Source: Thioalkalivibrio sp. ALJ16 (GTDB lineage Bacteria; Pseudomonadota; Gammaproteobacteria; Ectothiorhodospirales; Ectothiorhodospiraceae). From it: a DNA stretch of 64,000 nucleotides. Position 1 is the first letter of the stretch. Every line of letters begins with the position of its first letter. The position numbers and the translations under genes were made by a program. The stretch covers positions 187,412 to 251,411 of the forward strand of contig NZ_KB898037.1 of the NCBI RefSeq assembly GCF_000377345.1, given 5' to 3'. Positions 21,567 through 28,864 of this stretch are shown one piece after another. Below the pieces are notes generated by a model. The model saw only the letters and a program-made list of their open reading frames with translations. It searched no databases and was not told where the DNA came from.

Positions 21567-22175
21567 ATGGAACCCCGTTTTCGCGAGACCGCCTTTATCA
21601 AGGGCGTTGCCCAGGTCGCACAGCTGCCGCTGGACGAAGGCATCGAGATCGCCTTCGCCGGACGCTCTAACGCGGGCAAGTCCAGCGCGCTGAACAGCCT
21701 CTGTGGCCGCAAGGCGCTGGCGCGCGTCGGTCGTACCCCGGGGCGTACCCAGGAGATCAACCTGTTCGCCCTGCCCCCGGCCGAGGACTGGCGCCTGGTG
21801 GACCTCCCCGGCTACGGCTATGCCAAGGTCTCGGCGGGCCAGCGCGAGCACTGGGATCAGCTACTCGGTGATTATCTCCAGGCCCGCCGGTGTCTGCGCG
21901 GGCTGGTGCTGATCATGGACATTCGGCGTCCCCTGACCGAACTCGATCGCCAGCTGCTGGACTGGGTGCCACTGGATCGCTGCCACCTGCACTGCGTGCT
22001 GACCAAGGCCGACAAGCTGTCGCGGCAACAGGCTGATCGTCAGTTGCATGGCGCCCAGCGCGAGCTGGAGGCGATGGGGGTTGAAGCCACGCTGCAGACC
22101 TTCTCCTCGCTGAAAAATCAGGGGGTCGAGGACCTGCGTGGACTGCTCGCGGACTGGCTGAACGCCCCCGCCTGA
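21567..22175 (+). CDS. engB: Ribosome biogenesis GTP-binding protein EngB (YihA/YsxC)
   Basis: This is an essential small GTPase for large-subunit assembly. The 202 residues carry G1 GRSNAGKSS (about 32-40), the RVGRTPGRTQEIN switch I segment, G3 DLPGYGYAKV and G4 TKAD. Its 3' end runs 58 nt into the 3' end of the convergent GGDEF-EAL gene. With polA 4 kb away on the other strand, this preserves the polA-engB neighbourhood known from E. coli and Pseudomonas. Confidence 0.97.
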   Translation: MEPRFRETAFIKGVAQVAQLPLDEGIEIAFAGRSNAGKSSALNSLCGRKALARVGRTPGRTQEINLFALPPAEDWRLVDLPGYGYAKVSAGQREHWDQLLGDYLQARRCLRGLVLIMDIRRPLTELDRQLLDWVPLDRCHLHCVLTKADKLSRQQADRQLHGAQRELEAMGVEATLQTFSSLKNQGVEDLRGLLADWLNAPA

Positions 22176-24535
22176 GGTTGCCCGTCGAGTGGCGCCGGCC
22201 GCGCCAGTCCATAGCCCTGACCGTGCCGGATGCCGATCCCCTCGAGGCGTTCACGAATGCTCGCGTCCTCCACATGCTCGGCGATGGTCTCAAGGCCGAG
22301 GATCTGGGCGACTTCGTGGATGGCGCGCACCATGGCCAGATCGATCGGATCGCGGTTGATGTCGCGGACAAAGTGGCCGTCGATCTTCAGATAATCCACC
22401 GGCAGGTGCTTGAGATAGGCAAACGATGACAGTCCGCTGCCGAAGTCATCCAGCGCAAAGCGACAGCCGGATGTGCGCAGCCGGGTCATCAGCCGGGCCG
22501 TGCGCTCCAGGTGGTGCACCGCTGCGGTTTCCGTGATCTCGAAACACAGGCGGTCGCCCGGAATCCCTGCATTCGCAATGCCCCCCTGCAGGAAGTCCAC
22601 AAAGGCATCGTTGTTGAGCGAAGACCCGGAGAGGTTGATGCCCAGCACCGGCAGGGGCGTGCCGCCGGCCTGCAGGCCCTGCATGTAGGCCAGCGCGCGC
22701 GAGACCACCCAGTGGTCGATCTGCACCATCAGGTCGTAGCGTTCGGCGGCCGGAATGAAGGCTCCCGGTGTCACCAGCCCGCCGTCGGGGTCGCGCAGAC
22801 GCAGCAGGATCTCGAGATAGGTGTCGGAGTCGTCCGTCAGATTGCGCACCGGCTGTGCCCACAGCTCGAAGCGGTCCTGCTCGATGGCCTCCGGGATGCC
22901 GCTGACCCAGTGCAGCTCGCCCGTGCGGTCGCGCAATTCGACGTCTTCTTCGTGGAACACCCGAACCTGATTACGGCCGGCGTCTTTCACCGCGTAACAC
23001 GCGGTGTCGGCCTGCTGCAGGATCACCCGGGTCGATTCACTGGCCGCGCTGACCTCGACCAGGCCGATGCTGGCCGACAGCGAGTACGTTGCCCCCTCCC
23101 ACGCAAAGCGGAAGTCTGCCAGCGCCCGCGCGATCTCTTCGGCCAACAGCTGGCCCGCCTCAATGCCGCGGTCGGCGAGCAGGATGCCGAACTCGTCGCC
23201 GCCCAGGCGGGCCAGGGTGTCGTGCTCTCCGACCCAGCTCTGGAGCAGACGCGCAATCTGGCGCAGGAGCTCGTCGCCAACGGCGTGGCCGCGGGTGTCG
23301 TTGATGACCTTGAACTGGTCCAGGTCGAGGTAGCACAGGGTATGGCGGGTTCCGTGCGCGTGGGCCGCCCGAAGATGATCTTCCAGGCGCTTTTCAAAGG
23401 CCGCCCGGTTGAGCAGTCCGGTCAGGGCATCGTGCGTGGCCTGATAGTCCAGGCGATGCAGGGCCTCCCGCAGCTCGCTGATGTCACGCATGACCAGCAC
23501 GCTCTCCAGGCTGCCGGGCGGGCGGTTCAGGATCGGGGTCAACGAGAGCTGAACCGGTCGCACATGATTGGCGCGCGTGCGCAGCTGCAGCGGCAGATGA
23601 CGCATCGCTTCCGGGTCGCGGGGTGCGTCCGCGGCAAGAAGGGCCGGGTGCGGGGTGCCGCTGGCTTCGTCTTCCAGTCGCAGTGCTGCCGACAGGGGCT
23701 GCCCGGTCAGTTCGATGGGGCGCTGACCCAGCAGCTGGGTGACCACCGGATTGGCATAGTCGATGTTGCCCTCGCGGTCGGTGGTGACAACTGCATCGCC
23801 AATCGACTCCAGGGTGGTCTGAGCGCGTTCCTTCTCGCGCCGGCTCTGCTCGCGTTCGCGCGCGATCACCTCCTGCTGGTGCATCTGGATCAGGGTCATG
23901 CCGAGCCAGTCGGCACATAACTGGAGGAACCGCTGCTCCAGCACACTGGAGTGATCGCGCTGAGGGCCGATTCGATGCAGCACCAGCAGGCCCTGCCGGT
24001 CGTCGGGCAGCGCGAGTCCGATGGCTTCGACCATGCCCGGCCGGTTTTTGCCGCCGGGTAGCAGGTGCTCCCGGCAGATGCCGCCGTCCCGGGTCTGTGC
24101 GGCGCGCGTGAACAGCTTGAGCAGGGTCGAGTCATCCAGTGCCAGCGGCGGCACCTGTGGATGGACCCACAGGCGCCGCGGGGCGGCATCGTCGCCGGGC
24201 TTTTCGTACAGCGCTACGGTGTCTGACCGCAGCTGCTCGGCCATGACCCGGAGCAGGTGGGTAATGGCCTCGCCATGGTCGCTGCGCGCCTGGGTTGCCT
24301 CTACAAAGGTATTTAGCAGGTCGGTCTGCGAACGCAGCAGACGCATGCGCGCAAGCATGAAACCAAACAGTACGCCAACGGTGACCGGGATGATCAGCAG
24401 ACGGGGCTGAATCTGGTCGGCCCCGTACACAAACAGAAACTGGACCAGGGCCAGGGCGGCCACGATGGCCACAGCCATCGCGATGTAGCGTGCGTAAACC
24501 GGCCAGGTATTGCGCAGACGAGGCTGTGCCCGCAT
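22118..24535 (-). CDS. GGDEF-EAL dual-domain cyclic di-GMP signalling protein
   Basis: This 805-residue protein has two N-terminal membrane helices (about residues 17-38 and 45-62), a GAF-like region (about 80-240), a PAS domain (about 250-370), GGDEF (about 370-535) and EAL (about 545-785). GGDEF is intact (LGGDEFGIL) but the RxxD inhibitory site is absent (GEHD). The EAL signature is EIL (LEILLRL), keeping the metal-binding Glu, and DDFGSG, KIDG and AEHVED are present. Both activities are therefore possible. The last 20 residues overlap engB. It is the first coding gene after the small-RNA-like locus on the same strand. Confidence 0.93.
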   Translation of the reverse strand: MRAQPRLRNTWPVYARYIAMAVAIVAALALVQFLFVYGADQIQPRLLIIPVTVGVLFGFMLARMRLLRSQTDLLNTFVEATQARSDHGEAITHLLRVMAEQLRSDTVALYEKPGDDAAPRRLWVHPQVPPLALDDSTLLKLFTRAAQTRDGGICREHLLPGGKNRPGMVEAIGLALPDDRQGLLVLHRIGPQRDHSSVLEQRFLQLCADWLGMTLIQMHQQEVIAREREQSRREKERAQTTLESIGDAVVTTDREGNIDYANPVVTQLLGQRPIELTGQPLSAALRLEDEASGTPHPALLAADAPRDPEAMRHLPLQLRTRANHVRPVQLSLTPILNRPPGSLESVLVMRDISELREALHRLDYQATHDALTGLLNRAAFEKRLEDHLRAAHAHGTRHTLCYLDLDQFKVINDTRGHAVGDELLRQIARLLQSWVGEHDTLARLGGDEFGILLADRGIEAGQLLAEEIARALADFRFAWEGATYSLSASIGLVEVSAASESTRVILQQADTACYAVKDAGRNQVRVFHEEDVELRDRTGELHWVSGIPEAIEQDRFELWAQPVRNLTDDSDTYLEILLRLRDPDGGLVTPGAFIPAAERYDLMVQIDHWVVSRALAYMQGLQAGGTPLPVLGINLSGSSLNNDAFVDFLQGGIANAGIPGDRLCFEITETAAVHHLERTARLMTRLRTSGCRFALDDFGSGLSSFAYLKHLPVDYLKIDGHFVRDINRDPIDLAMVRAIHEVAQILGLETIAEHVEDASIRERLEGIGIRHGQGYGLARPAPLDGQPQAGAFSQSASSPRRSSTP

Positions 24536-24687: not shown

Positions 24688-24723
24688 AAAAAAATGCCCC
24701 GGCCTTGGGGAGGGACCGGGGCA
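24688..24723 (-). terminator. Intrinsic terminator of the sRNA / SCO1 transcript
   Basis: An 8-bp stem (TGCCCCGG / CCGGGGCA) is followed on the minus strand by an uninterrupted run of seven T, a textbook Rho-independent terminator. It ends transcription coming from SCO1 or from the candidate small RNA before the GGDEF-EAL gene. Confidence 0.9.
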
Positions 24724-24803
24724 AATTTCGGCCTCTACAGGGGGGAGAGAGGCCGGTGCCCGCTCAGGGAGAAAAGCGGGCCGCGCTGGGCTAGAGCGCT
24801 TGT
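24688..24803 (-). ncRNA. Candidate trans-acting small RNA with three C-rich loops, polA-engB locus
   Basis: Seen in sequence, minus strand 5' to 3': a short 5' hairpin (24799-24783); stem-loop A (24781-24758, 7-bp stem, loop TTTCTCCCTG); stem-loop B (24755-24729, 8-bp stem, loop CTCCCCCCTGT); and terminator stem-loop C (24723-24695, 8-bp stem, loop TCCCTCCCCAAGG) followed by seven T. All three main loops show a CUCCC/CCUCCCC motif able to pair with Shine-Dalgarno sequences. The 5' end is a guess: a weak -10 (CATTCT at 24815-24810) gives a start near 24803, about 60 bp from the centre of a CRP-type palindrome. Position between polA and engB matches Spot 42 and ErsA, and from memory sX13 is also next to polA. 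It could instead be only the 3' UTR of SCO1. Confidence 0.6.
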
Positions 24804-24854
24804 CCTGTAAGAATGCCTGTCGCCGTGGAAGTTCCCCCGGGGCGGGGGCCCGGT

Positions 24855-24870
24855 TGTGAAATTTTTCACA
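24855..24870. promoter_or_regulatory. CRP/Vfr-type palindrome TGTGA-N6-TCACA
   Basis: TGTGAAATTTTTCACA matches the CRP consensus TGTGA-N6-TCACA at all ten conserved positions. It starts about 26 nt past the SCO1 stop codon in noncoding DNA and 52 bp upstream of the predicted 5' end of the small RNA. The centre is at about -60, a normal class I CRP position. No crp gene is in the window. Confidence 0.65.
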
Positions 24871-24896: not shown

Positions 24897-25523
24897 CTAT
24901 TCGGCGTGCGCCCTGAGCGCGGCCACGAGGTCCGCGGCCGGGGTGCCGTGCGGGTGGATCTCCAGCAGTTCGCCATCCGGGCCGATCAGATAGGTCGAGG
25001 AGCTGTGGTCGATGACGTAGCCCATCGCCGAGTCGGTCTCGGCGCGCTCGAAGAACACGCCGTAGTCCCGGGCGGCGGCGCGCAGCGCCGCTTCCGGCCC
25101 GGTGGCGGCGTGGATGTTGTCATGAAAGTAGCCCACGTAGTCCGCCAGGTGTTCCGGGGTGTCACGCTCGGGATCGACGCTGATGAAGACCCCGCTGACT
25201 TGCCCCTGCAGGGCCTCCGGCAGCCGGTCCAGCGCCCCGCTGATCCAGCCGAGGCTGGTGGGGCAGGCGTCGGGGCAATAGGTGTAGCCGAAGTACAGCC
25301 ATACGTACTGCCCCGCATAGTCGCCCAGATCGAAATGCTCGGCATGGGTGGCCACCGGCAGCTCGATGGGGCCGCCGCGGACCTCGTCGGCTACGGGCAG
25401 CTGGGCATGGCCGGGTTCGGCCACCGGTGGCTCGCCCGGGTTCAGGGTGACGAATACCAGGAGGGCCCCGGCCGCAAGGACGGCCAGGCCCCAGAACAGG
25501 CTGCTGACGGGGATGCGCTGCAT
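24897..25523 (-). CDS. SCO1/SenC-family copper chaperone for cytochrome oxidase
   Basis: This membrane-anchored thioredoxin-fold protein delivers copper to the CuA or CuB site of heme-copper oxidases. The 208 residues start with one membrane helix (about 8-28). The copper-binding CPDAC motif (Cys83, Cys87) sits in WLYFGYTYCPDACP, and the distal ligand His173 is in VIDHSSSTYLIG. SVDPERDTPEHL is another family hallmark. It is separated by 2 nt from an upstream exported protein of unknown function, so the pair is cotranscribed. A cbb3 oxidase gene lies elsewhere in the window. Confidence 0.93.
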   Translation of the reverse strand: MQRIPVSSLFWGLAVLAAGALLVFVTLNPGEPPVAEPGHAQLPVADEVRGGPIELPVATHAEHFDLGDYAGQYVWLYFGYTYCPDACPTSLGWISGALDRLPEALQGQVSGVFISVDPERDTPEHLADYVGYFHDNIHAATGPEAALRAAARDYGVFFERAETDSAMGYVIDHSSSTYLIGPDGELLEIHPHGTPAADLVAALRAHAE

Positions 25524-25525
25524 GA

Positions 25526-26023
25526 TCAGTGGTCGCGTGCGGTAACGAAGCGGAATTGTGCGAAAGCGGCCTTGGGTTCGCCCGCCGGCATGGCGGTGGC
25601 GGCCCAGGTCATGGATTCGGTGGTGCAGATCGGCAGCGTGGTCGTGCCGCGGTAGCGGCCCGCGCCAGTGTGTTCCAGGCGCGGGCGCTGGTAGCCCATG
25701 TACATCTCGACCCCGGCCAGGTCCAGCTCCAGGGTCTCCGGGCTGCCCAGCGCGGACTGTGCCGCGGCATCCAGCTGCAGATCCAGCGTCAGCTCGCGCA
25801 GCATCGGGATCGGGCGCGGCGCGATCTCCAGCCGCACCTCGCCGCCCTGTGGCAGCGCGGTGCTGCAGGGGCCGGTATTCAGGTCGCAGGCCTCCGGCTG
25901 GACCACCGGCAGGTCGGCGGCATACCCGATGTCCAGGTAGCGTTCGGCCAGCACCCAGGCGGTCGCGAGCAGCAGCAGTGCGACCAGCCAGGCGGCTATA
26001 CGGTTAAAGCGGCGGGCGAACAT
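25526..26023 (-). CDS. Membrane-anchored protein of unknown function paired with SCO1
   Basis: I do not recognise a family. The 165 residues have one N-terminal membrane helix (AAWLVALLLLATAWVL) and a periplasmic domain of about 135 residues. Four cysteines are present in that domain if the frame is read as given: two in EACDLNTGPC, and CTT in TLPICTTESMTW. A Met-rich segment, LAGVEMYMGY, follows the helix-rich middle. The gene begins 7 nt after the polA stop and is 2 nt from SCO1. A role in copper delivery or oxidase assembly is inferred only from the neighbour and the Cys/Met content. Confidence 0.7.
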   Translation of the reverse strand: MFARRFNRIAAWLVALLLLATAWVLAERYLDIGYAADLPVVQPEACDLNTGPCSTALPQGGEVRLEIAPRPIPMLRELTLDLQLDAAAQSALGSPETLELDLAGVEMYMGYQRPRLEHTGAGRYRGTTTLPICTTESMTWAATAMPAGEPKAAFAQFRFVTARDH

Positions 26024-26030
26024 GGGGCCC

Positions 26031-28733
26031 CTAGTGGGCGTCGTCCCAGTTGGCGCCGGTGCCGACGTCCACCACCAGCTCGACGTCCAGATCGGCGGCC
26101 CCGCTCATGGCCTGGCGCACAAGCGTGGTCAGGTCCTCCACCGCCGCGTCGGCCACCTCGAATACCAGTTCGTCGTGCACCTGCATGATCATGCGGGCAT
26201 CGATCTTTACCGCTTCGAGGTCGTTCGCGACCCGCACCATCGCGCGCTTGATGATGTCGGCGGCGGTGCCCTGCATCGGGGCGTTGATGGCGACACGCTC
26301 GGACTGCTGGCGTCGCGCCCCGTTGCGGCTGTTGATCTCCGGCAGGTACAGGCGGCGGCCGAACAGGGTCTCGACATAGCCGTTCTCGCGCCCGGAGGCG
26401 CGCGCGCGTTCCATATAGTCGTGCACGCCGGGATAGCGATTGAAGTAGCGGTCGATGTACTCGCGCGCCTCGCCCTGCTCGATGCCGAGGTTGCGCGCCA
26501 GCCCCCAGGCGGACATGCCATAGATCAGGCCGAAGTTGATCGCCTTGGCCGCGCGACGTTGATCGCCGGAGACCTGCTCCGGCTCCAGCCCGAAGACCTC
26601 GGCGGCGGTCGCGCGGTGGATGTCCTGGCCCTCGGCGAAGGCCTTCAGCAAGCCCGCGTCCTGCGACAGGTGGGCCATGATGCGCAGCTCGATCTGCGAG
26701 TAGTCCGCCGCCAGCAGCTGGTGGCCCTCATCCGCGATGAACGCGCGGCGGATGCGCCGGCCGGCCTCGGTGCGCACCGGGATGTTCTGCAGGTTCGGCT
26801 CCGAGGACGACAGCCGCCCGGTGGCCGCGCCGGCCTGGTGATAGGAGGTGTGCACCCGTCCGGTCTCCGGATGGATGCGCCGGGGCAGGGTCTCGGTGTA
26901 GGTGCTGCGCAACTTGGACAGGCCGCGATGCTCGAGGATCAGGCGTGGCAGGGGGTAGTCGTCCGCCATTTGCTCCAGCACGTCTTCAGCGGTGGAGGGC
27001 TGGCCCTTGGGCGTGCGCCGCAGCACCGGCAGGCCCAGGCGCTCGAACAGGATCTCCTGGATCTGCTTGGGCGAGCCGAGGTTGAACTCGCCGCCGGCCT
27101 CCTCGAACGCCTGTTTCTCGATGCGTTCCATCTCGCTCAGCAATTCCTGGCTCTGCTCGCCGAGCCGATCCGGGTCCACCTTCACGCCGACGCGTTCGAT
27201 ATCCGCCAGCACCGGGACCAGCGGCATCTCGATCTCGCGATAGACGAACGCCGGGCCTTCAGCCTCCTGCAGGCGTGGCTGGAACACCGCATCCAGCTGC
27301 AGGCAGATGTCGGCATCCTCGCCGGCGTAATCGGTGGCGATGCCGATATCCACCTCGGCGAACGGGATCTGCTTGGCACCCTTGCCGGCCACGTCCTCGT
27401 AGTGCGTGGTCTGGTAGTCCAGGTGACGCTCAGCCAGGGAGTCCAGGTCGTGGCGGTTGGCCCCGGCATCCAGACAGAACGACTCTAGCAGGGTGTCGTC
27501 GACGATGCCGCGCAGGCTGATGCCGTGATTGCCCAGCACGTTGCGGTCGTACTTCAGGTGGTGGCCGAGCTTGCCGTGGCGCTCCGACTCCAGCCACGGC
27601 CTCAGGCGCTCGAGCGTCTGCTCGCGCGGCAGCTGCGGGTCGGCATCCGGCCCGGTGTGGGCCAGTGGCAGGTAGTACGCGGTGCCCGGCTCGAAGGCGA
27701 AGGACATGCCGACGATCTCCGCGCGCATGGCGTCCAGGCTGGTGGTCTCGGTATCGAAGGCGACCCGCTCGGCCTGGTCCAGACGCTCCAGCAGCTCGGC
27801 CAGTTCGGCCGCCTCGCGCAGCGTCCGGTAGTTGCCCCTTGCCTGCGACGGACCCGGGTTGCCGCCAGCGGCCTCGTCCTCGCTGCCCTCCAGCTCCGCG
27901 CGCCAGCGGGTGAAGCCGTAGCGGCGCACCATCTCCAGCAGGCGCTCGTGATCCGGCTCGCGGATGTTCAGGTCGTCGGGGCCGACCTCCAGCTCGACAT
28001 CGCGCTTGACCGTGATCAGCTCGCGCGAGGTGGGCAGGCGCTCGGCCGCAGCGCGCAGGTTCTCGCCGATCTTGCCGCCGATGTCGTCGGCCTGTTCCAG
28101 GATGGTGTCGAGGTCGCCGTACTTCGCGATCCACTTGGCCGCGGTCTTGGGGCCGACCTTGTCCACGCCCGGGATGTTGTCGACGCTGTCGCCCATCAGC
28201 GCGAGGTAGTCGACGATCTGCTCCGGGGCGACGCCGAACTTCTCCTGCACGCCCTCGCGATCCAGCGTGATCCCGCTCATGGTGTTGACCAGCGTGATGC
28301 GGTCATTCACCAGCTGCGCGAGGTCCTTGTCGCCGGTGGAGATCACCACATCGTGCCCGGCTGCGGCGGACTGGTCGGCGAGGGTCGCGATCACATCATC
28401 GGCCTCCACCCCCTCGACGCACAACAGCGGCAGGCCCATCGCCCGCACCAGCTCATGCAGCGGCTCGATCTGGGCGGCCAGCTCTTCCGGCATCGGCGGG
28501 CGGGTGGCCTTGTATTCCGGGTAGATGTCGTCGCGGAAGGTCTTGCCCTTGGCATCGAACACTACCGCCATGTGCTCCGGGCCGTAGTCCGCGCGCAGCT
28601 TGCGCAGCATGTTGGCCACGCCAATCATCGCCCCGGTCGGGGCGCCATCCGGCGCGGTCAGCGGCGGCAGGGCATGGAAGGCCCGAAACAGATACGACGA
28701 ACCGTCGACCAGGACGAGGGGGGCTTGCGACAT
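26031..28733 (-). CDS. polA: DNA polymerase I
   Basis: This is a 900-residue family A polymerase for Okazaki-fragment processing and repair. Three parts are visible: the 5'-3' exonuclease (residues 1-300, LVDGSSYLFRAFHALPPL), the 3'-5' exonuclease with its acidic residues intact (VAFDTETTSLDA), and the polymerase domain (AADYSQIELRIMAHLS, GLIYGMSAWGL, MQVHDELVFEV). The proofreading site therefore appears active. The start at 28733 (MSQAPLVLVDG) is set by homology; longer frames add a low-complexity leader. It is divergent from the LOG gene across 131 bp. Confidence 0.97.
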   Translation of the reverse strand: MSQAPLVLVDGSSYLFRAFHALPPLTAPDGAPTGAMIGVANMLRKLRADYGPEHMAVVFDAKGKTFRDDIYPEYKATRPPMPEELAAQIEPLHELVRAMGLPLLCVEGVEADDVIATLADQSAAAGHDVVISTGDKDLAQLVNDRITLVNTMSGITLDREGVQEKFGVAPEQIVDYLALMGDSVDNIPGVDKVGPKTAAKWIAKYGDLDTILEQADDIGGKIGENLRAAAERLPTSRELITVKRDVELEVGPDDLNIREPDHERLLEMVRRYGFTRWRAELEGSEDEAAGGNPGPSQARGNYRTLREAAELAELLERLDQAERVAFDTETTSLDAMRAEIVGMSFAFEPGTAYYLPLAHTGPDADPQLPREQTLERLRPWLESERHGKLGHHLKYDRNVLGNHGISLRGIVDDTLLESFCLDAGANRHDLDSLAERHLDYQTTHYEDVAGKGAKQIPFAEVDIGIATDYAGEDADICLQLDAVFQPRLQEAEGPAFVYREIEMPLVPVLADIERVGVKVDPDRLGEQSQELLSEMERIEKQAFEEAGGEFNLGSPKQIQEILFERLGLPVLRRTPKGQPSTAEDVLEQMADDYPLPRLILEHRGLSKLRSTYTETLPRRIHPETGRVHTSYHQAGAATGRLSSSEPNLQNIPVRTEAGRRIRRAFIADEGHQLLAADYSQIELRIMAHLSQDAGLLKAFAEGQDIHRATAAEVFGLEPEQVSGDQRRAAKAINFGLIYGMSAWGLARNLGIEQGEAREYIDRYFNRYPGVHDYMERARASGRENGYVETLFGRRLYLPEINSRNGARRQQSERVAINAPMQGTAADIIKRAMVRVANDLEAVKIDARMIMQVHDELVFEVADAAVEDLTTLVRQAMSGAADLDVELVVDVGTGANWDDAH

Positions 28734-28864
28734 GGAGGCGGGACCGGGCTGGGGAACGCGCGCCATTCTACAGGGCCGCGGCGCGGTGCGGCCATCGACG
28801 CCCGCCATTTGTACGGACCCGGGGCCACCGTTACGCTACACGCAATCGCCCACAGGAAACCCCG

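Follow-up and report, generated by a model that had tools for sequence, protein, structure and literature searches.

What is encoded on the minus strand between polA and engB of Thioalkalivibrio sp. ALJ16, at the position known from the small RNAs Spot 42, ErsA and sX13? The window analyzed here is a stretch of 64,000 nt (assembly GCF_000377345.1, contig NZ_KB898037.1, positions 187,412-251,411), and all coordinates refer to it. In a preliminary description made from the letters alone, the feature was read as an sRNA locus in a sulfur-oxidising lineage, a positional analogue of Spot 42 with a CRP-type site, aimed at ribosome-binding sites. The analysis presented below indicates that the feature is very probably a small regulatory RNA; the earlier reading identified the correct kind of element, took too narrow a scope and overlooked the main promoter.

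A four-hairpin RNA gene in the polA-engB interval

The polA gene (26031-28808, minus strand) is followed on the same strand by a gene for a 165-aa protein without a family hit in Pfam or NCBIfam (25526-26023), by SCO1/SenC (24897-25523) and by a GGDEF-EAL gene (22118-24535), with engB (21567-22175) on the plus strand; the 3' ends of the GGDEF-EAL gene and engB overlap tail to tail by 58 nt. The sRNA gene (24688-24802, minus strand, about 115 nt) lies inside the polA-engB interval together with these three genes. The SCO1 stop is located about 94 nt upstream of it and the GGDEF-EAL gene 152 nt downstream, both on the same strand. The 5' end was placed from the -10 box (about 24801-24802) and the 3' end from the U tract.

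The segment 24685-24800 folds at -59.6 kcal/mol (z -5.75), and none of 200 shuffled sequences folded as well. The gene comprises four successive minus-strand hairpins, three of which expose C-rich loops. The 5' hairpin, GCGCT-CTAGCCC-AGCGC (GCGCTCTAGCCCAGCGC; 24783-24799), is followed by hairpin 1 (24758-24781), with the CUCCC-containing loop TTCTCCCTG, by hairpin 2 (24729-24755), with the loop CTCCCCCCTG, and by hairpin 3 (24696-24722; loop CCCTCCCCAAG), which fold, alignment and sequence alike identify as the stem of an intrinsic terminator ending in a U tract of seven T (24688-24694). The three C-rich stem-loops of the preliminary description, the last of them the terminator with its seven T, are all present in the sequence; the fourth, 5'-most hairpin had been overlooked. 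A generic terminator scan called none at the sRNA: the terminator loop has 9 unpaired bases and the limit of the scan is 8. The generic scan of the locus also returned no match to the sigma-70 consensus. A short open reading frame inside the RNA was considered and rejected, there being no ATG or GTG frame; the sole candidate is a frame of 12 codons that begins late, at a TTG.

Conservation and covariation within the genus

A DNA search recovered the sRNA from 21 of 24 congeners and from one genome of another family. A covariance model built from 21 genus sequences (R1), which holds the RNA only and no locus information, found it in 27 of the 30 genus genomes, ALJ16 included, and in 22 of the 23 of good quality. 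The proposal of a conserved sRNA-like locus of about 115 nt at the Spot 42/ErsA/sX13 position is thus borne out. Among 28 sRNA loci, one of which comes from another family, engB was present in 26, and so was at least one of polA, SCO1 and the gene for the 165-aa protein. The last of these was seen in 25.

Compensatory stem changes with loops kept C-rich had been proposed as a check, and both were observed. Within the genus, 8 of the 24 predicted pairs change on both sides; these pairs lie in the 5' hairpin (the outermost and innermost pair), in hairpin 1 and, with 5 of its 7 stem pairs, in hairpin 2. The loop of hairpin 2 is C-rich in 21 of 21 genus rows, and CTCCCTGAGCGGG of hairpin 1 is invariant in the 21 aligned rows. 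The 21-row alignment (A2) omits the locus from another family (L020), a locus cut by a contig end (L023) and an off-target match (L024); for the register of the terminator, L005, L012 and L013 were also removed (A3). The genus covariation score was 0.197, versus at most 0.092 for slid pairings, and was reached in 0 of 500 shuffles (18 rows, 16 of them distinct, with the terminator written in). Two of the five covariation measures fell within the range of the shuffles, namely the number of double-change pairs (102/500) and of further pair types (500/500). The broken pairs of helix 4 in this test arise because the terminator sits one column off in the second group of rows; in the sequences of the rows concerned, the terminator stem is intact.

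R1 additionally produced weak secondary matches (E about 4e-5) in two congeners (L346 and L348 in G298, L347 in G024), two of which are about 550 bases apart. It is possible that these are paralogues.

A sigma-E type promoter and a lineage-limited CRP-type site

Directly upstream of the RNA lies GGAACTT-N16-TCTTA (24808-24835, minus strand; -35 at 24829-24835, -10 at 24808-24812), a promoter sequence of the sigma-E (RpoE/AlgU) type; GAACT(T)-N16/17-TCNNA is the box of such factors. The pattern GGAACT(T)-N16-TCNNA (GGAAC-N18-TCNNA) occurs at a fixed distance upstream of the RNA in 21 of 22 genus loci. The 22nd (L023) carries TGAACTT with equal spacing, and all 5 of the further genus loci have the box, which brings the total to 27 of 27 genus copies. 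L020, which comes from another family, is without it. RpoE is encoded in ALJ16 (309.8 bits, cut-off 236), and rpoE is followed by RseA- and RseB-like genes whose matches are below cut-off. Across the genome, the strict promoter pattern has 4 sites, versus 4 for a reversed control; hence, the pattern by itself proves nothing. Among the other three sites, one directly precedes rpoH, a classical sigma-E target, another is located at the 3' end of a metK-like frame and upstream of an ahcY-like frame (names assigned by eye), and the remaining one has no evident meaning. In addition, GAACTT-N16-TCCAT precedes rpoE.

Farther upstream, the CRP-type palindrome TGTGAAAAATTTCACA (24855-24870, minus strand) is centered about 61.5 nt before the inferred start. 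TGTGA-N6-TCACA, with at most one mismatch, was found in 11 of 21 genus loci, versus 0.12% in shuffles, and its center lies 26-27 nt before the -35 box, that is, near -61.5 of the inferred start. Two of the other loci retain a decayed copy in place (3 mismatches), and eight have none. By eye, the site is present in 3 of six further genus loci, for a total of 14 of 27 copies. A CRP orthologue is encoded (320.8 bits, over cut-off), as is an FNR orthologue. As a family-wide feature, the CRP site was rejected, being present in 6 of 113 class-wide copies (at most 2 mismatches) versus about 2.5 expected. Given its presence in about half of the genus and the lack of class-wide enrichment, the site is a real but lineage-limited addition. 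The preliminary description had therefore located a genuine element, although one restricted to a subclade, and had passed over the main conserved promoter, which is of the sigma-E type.

Relatives across the class and the phylum

In an even sample of 274 genomes of the class, R1 had matches in 98 (ALJ16 included), which belong to 83 of the 221 genera sampled. The class-wide loci are the top match in each of the other 97 genomes. Although the model is blind to the locus, 83 of these 97 are no more than 500 bp away from engB or polA. Within the fetched stretch, engB or polA is present at 84 of the 97 loci, and engB, polA or a neighboring cytochrome c gene at 89. Relatives are also found in many named betaproteobacteria, among the matches listed in a scan of named contigs. 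The RNA is thus not confined to the one sulfur-oxidising lineage in which the preliminary description placed it.

In the class alignment of 114 copies, both-side changes occur at 23 of 24 pairs and 94.8% of the cells are paired, rising to 97.3% in the 5' hairpin. The covariation score was 0.592, versus at most 0.080 for slid versions, in an alignment fitted to the model, which favors the structure. CTCCCT is present in 87 of the 114 copies, compared with 11.9 expected from shuffles, a figure favored by the presence of the motif in the search model; the same holds for the 103 of 114 folded copies with at least two C-rich hairpin loops, such loops being likewise part of the model. Between two and five sRNA copies are found at 12 of the 97 loci. 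The tandem arrays include five copies at L082 (3659-4402) and four at L099 (3649-4404), several of which carry, by eye, a sigma-E-like box of their own.

The promoter box extends beyond the genus. GAACTT (at most one mismatch)-N15-17-TCNNA precedes 76 of the 114 class-wide copies, 51 of them with an exact match, at 65 of the 97 loci, whereas the frequency was 0.8% in random stretches of the same loci and 1.0% in shuffles, and the reverse complement gave 1 of 114; 38 of the 114 copies fail the test at one mismatch. The scan of named contigs, a DNA pattern search that gives no frequencies, yielded at least 121 copies on at least 120 stretches. Among the matches listed, the box, with a spacing of 15-18 allowed, accompanies 54 of the 80 copies that have engB or polA no more than 1.5 kb away and 5 of the 41 located elsewhere, versus 1.2% in shuffles; some slices stop near the sRNA copy, so that neighboring genes can be missed. 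In the 60 of 121 rows that were viewed, many of the copies away from engB and polA belong to Comamonadaceae (Variovorax, Hydrogenophaga, Polaromonas, Ramlibacter). Copies of the Variovorax/Polaromonas type (L200, L214, L219, L228 and similar ones) have neither engB in the slice nor a sigma-E box, and their upstream sequences differ.

The basis of a second model, R2, was the set of 114 copies, with the sX13 loci that exceed the cut-off excluded. In a sample of the phylum, it matched 36 of 398 genomes, namely ALJ16, 32 others of the class and 3 of other classes. Among the 28 phylum-wide R2 loci viewed, engB or polA is within 1.5 kb in 16, and neither is within that distance in 12. Several of these 12 look genuine by eye, and three look false (L366, L374 and L375), L374 being the sole viewed locus from another class.

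Relation to known RNA families

At Rfam's own cut-offs, no family was called at the ALJ16 sRNA. Below the cut-offs, anti-hemB (RF02837) scored 45.8 bits (cut-off 49.5) over its full length (model positions 1-81 of 81, E 9.5e-10), followed by sX13 (RF02232; 28.2 bits, cut-off 50), alpha-r7 (27.9 bits), ErsA (RF01719; 19.0 bits, cut-off 50) and Spot 42 (RF00021; 15.0 bits, cut-off 80). By score, the ALJ16 sRNA is therefore a member of no Rfam family as now drawn, and anti-hemB is the nearest. The locus does occupy the position of its proposed counterparts, but it is more than a positional analogue, since the match to anti-hemB in sequence and structure falls just below the cut-off. Homology to Spot 42, at E 2.2, was rejected; what holds of that comparison is the position and not kinship by sequence.

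Of the class-wide loci, 40 out of 97 were scanned with Rfam; 7 of these 40 exceeded the cut-off of anti-hemB and none that of sX13, ErsA or Spot 42. Across the 274 class genomes at E 0.001, anti-hemB matched 124 (14 over cut-off), sX13 12 (2 over) and ErsA 10 (1 over). All 9 sub-cut-off ErsA matches, and 5 of 10 for sX13, have engB or polA within 1.5 kb. Furthermore, R2 recovers, at E 3e-4, the sX13 locus of G036, which exceeds the sX13 cut-off, and the one over-cut-off ErsA locus carries GAACTT-N17-TCATA. In that ErsA locus (L188), the palindrome AGTGAAAATATTTTCACA is located upstream of the sigma-22-type box, about 63-80 nt before the start of the ErsA model; it resembles the CRP-type site of ALJ16 but has 8, not 6, bases between the half-sites.

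With anti-hemB (ncS04, Burkholderia RNA 7), the ALJ16 RNA shares hairpin 1 (CCCGCTT..CTCCCTGAGCGGG) and the order of three hairpins and terminator, and 79 of the 121 named-contig copies listed, which are largely betaproteobacterial, have engB in the same 8-kb slice. In contrast to anti-hemB, the genus RNA carries one more hairpin, at its 5' end, that the model does not cover. At the top-scoring anti-hemB locus of the sample, inspection by eye showed no sigma-E box, and neither engB nor polA lies within 1.5 kb. Pseudomonas ErsA resembles it in the polA-engB interval, in a sigma-E-type promoter (sigma-22 in the case of ErsA) and in a C-rich terminator loop, and differs in the sequences of the hairpins. 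Similarly, sX13 of Xanthomonadaceae lies near or downstream of polA and has three hairpins with C-rich loops in about 115 nt, whereas inspection by eye of the two sX13 loci above the cut-off revealed no sigma-E box. Spot 42 has in common the position and a CRP-type site, CRP being encoded and its effect putative, and differs in promoter type, with no sequence relation shown. From scores, loci and cross-model matches, the sequence evidence for membership in a single family is good in the case of anti-hemB, fair in those of ErsA and sX13, and absent in that of Spot 42. Relatives of the ALJ16 RNA occupy this position in many proteobacteria, mostly behind a promoter of the sigma-E type, which suggests a wider family that takes in known small RNAs of Pseudomonas, Xanthomonas and Burkholderia.

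Alternative explanations

Because the RNA lies on the SCO1 strand, only about 94 nt past the stop, its hairpins could be merely the 3' end or terminator of the SCO1 transcript, ending or stabilising it, with no independent sRNA. We regard this as very unlikely, given that the promoter-like box keeps a fixed upstream place in all 27 genus copies, that the loop of hairpin 1 is invariant, and that across the class the RNA stays by engB or polA while the SCO1 of ALJ16 has no tblastn match (E 1e-6) in the 97 loci. A Spot 42-like sRNA under CRP control, transcribed by polymerase with sigma-70 and not sigma-E, would account for the position, for the encoded CRP and for the palindrome, which 14 of the 27 genus copies carry at a class-I distance. 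However, the search for a sigma-70 consensus found no match, the Spot_42 model reached only 15.0 bits, and about half of the genus lacks the CRP site, whereas the sigma-E box is in all 27 copies; this alternative is accordingly unlikely.

The GGDEF-EAL gene downstream on the same strand, 152 nt away, raises the further idea of a cis-regulatory leader, either a riboswitch or an attenuator, and one study proposes, for Thioalkalivibrio, a 'ykoW' motif that precedes an EAL gene (PMC11109978). That motif is described there as a three-stem junction overlapping the Shine-Dalgarno sequence, unlike the sRNA. Moreover, among the 28 loci, the GGDEF-EAL gene adjoins the RNA only in ALJ16, and engB takes its place in 26 of the other 27, the last one ending at a contig edge. 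A leader function is thus hardly credible.

Proposed function and implications

In our assessment, the locus probably encodes a trans-acting sRNA of about 115 nt that is driven by sigma-E, targets ribosome-binding sites through C-rich loops and, in a subclade, is probably tuned by CRP; its transcription, stress induction, response to CRP, targets and repressive action are what we infer from the features described above. The sRNA would be transcribed from its own sigma-E promoter under envelope stress, and CRP at about -61.5 would probably tune it in the ALJ16 subclade. The RNA is predicted to form four hairpins, whose C-rich loops, CUCCC, CUCCCCCC and CCCUCCCC, resemble anti-Shine-Dalgarno sequences. 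Such loops could pair with G-rich ribosome-binding sites and repress translation, with or without Hfq, which is encoded in ALJ16 (101.4 bits). By analogy with ErsA and sX13, whose mode of action the ALJ16 sRNA may share, its synthesis would be expected upon envelope stress, with G-rich ribosome-binding sites as the elements that it blocks.

Precedents exist for each part of this proposal. Passages on ErsA describe its expression as strictly sigma-22 dependent (PMC7565897) and place ersA in the polA-engB interval (PMC8575079). According to parts of the sX13 study, that RNA is encoded downstream of polA, represses via C-rich loops and G-rich mRNA motifs, and acts without need for Hfq (PMC3771888). 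For ncS04/anti-hemB of B. cenocepacia, passages of PMC5688073 report a 105-nt, Hfq-bound transcript, tabulated as '-' in all seven conditions, and suggest occlusion of ribosome-binding sites for some sRNAs of that study. In passages of a Thioalkalivibrio transcriptome paper (PMC8092127), no mention of the sRNA locus was found.

On balance, we lean towards the broader view that ErsA, sX13, anti-hemB and the ALJ16 RNA represent branches of a single ancient family of gamma- and betaproteobacteria, linked to polA-engB and driven mainly by sigma-E. This family would act as a general envelope-stress repressor via anti-Shine-Dalgarno loops; it would have multiplied locally in tandem, to as many as five copies, and some lineages would have moved to other promoters or gained CRP control. 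No paper uniting these RNAs was found in the literature searched, a body that leaves out most subscription journals.

Given the precedents in ErsA and sX13, the new points are how far the RNA extends across the class, the signature of its promoter and the links that it provides among Rfam families. Among the 98 genomes matched by R1, 85 have no match over the Rfam cut-off of anti-hemB, sX13 or ErsA; thus, annotation with these models misses most copies. The sRNAs at polA have so far been described lineage by lineage under unrelated names. If locus, structure, loops and promoter box are indeed shared, they would form one testable family, with one prediction for many unstudied lineages. If true, that prediction, envelope-stress induction and repression of G-rich ribosome-binding sites, would apply to 83 of the 221 genera sampled.
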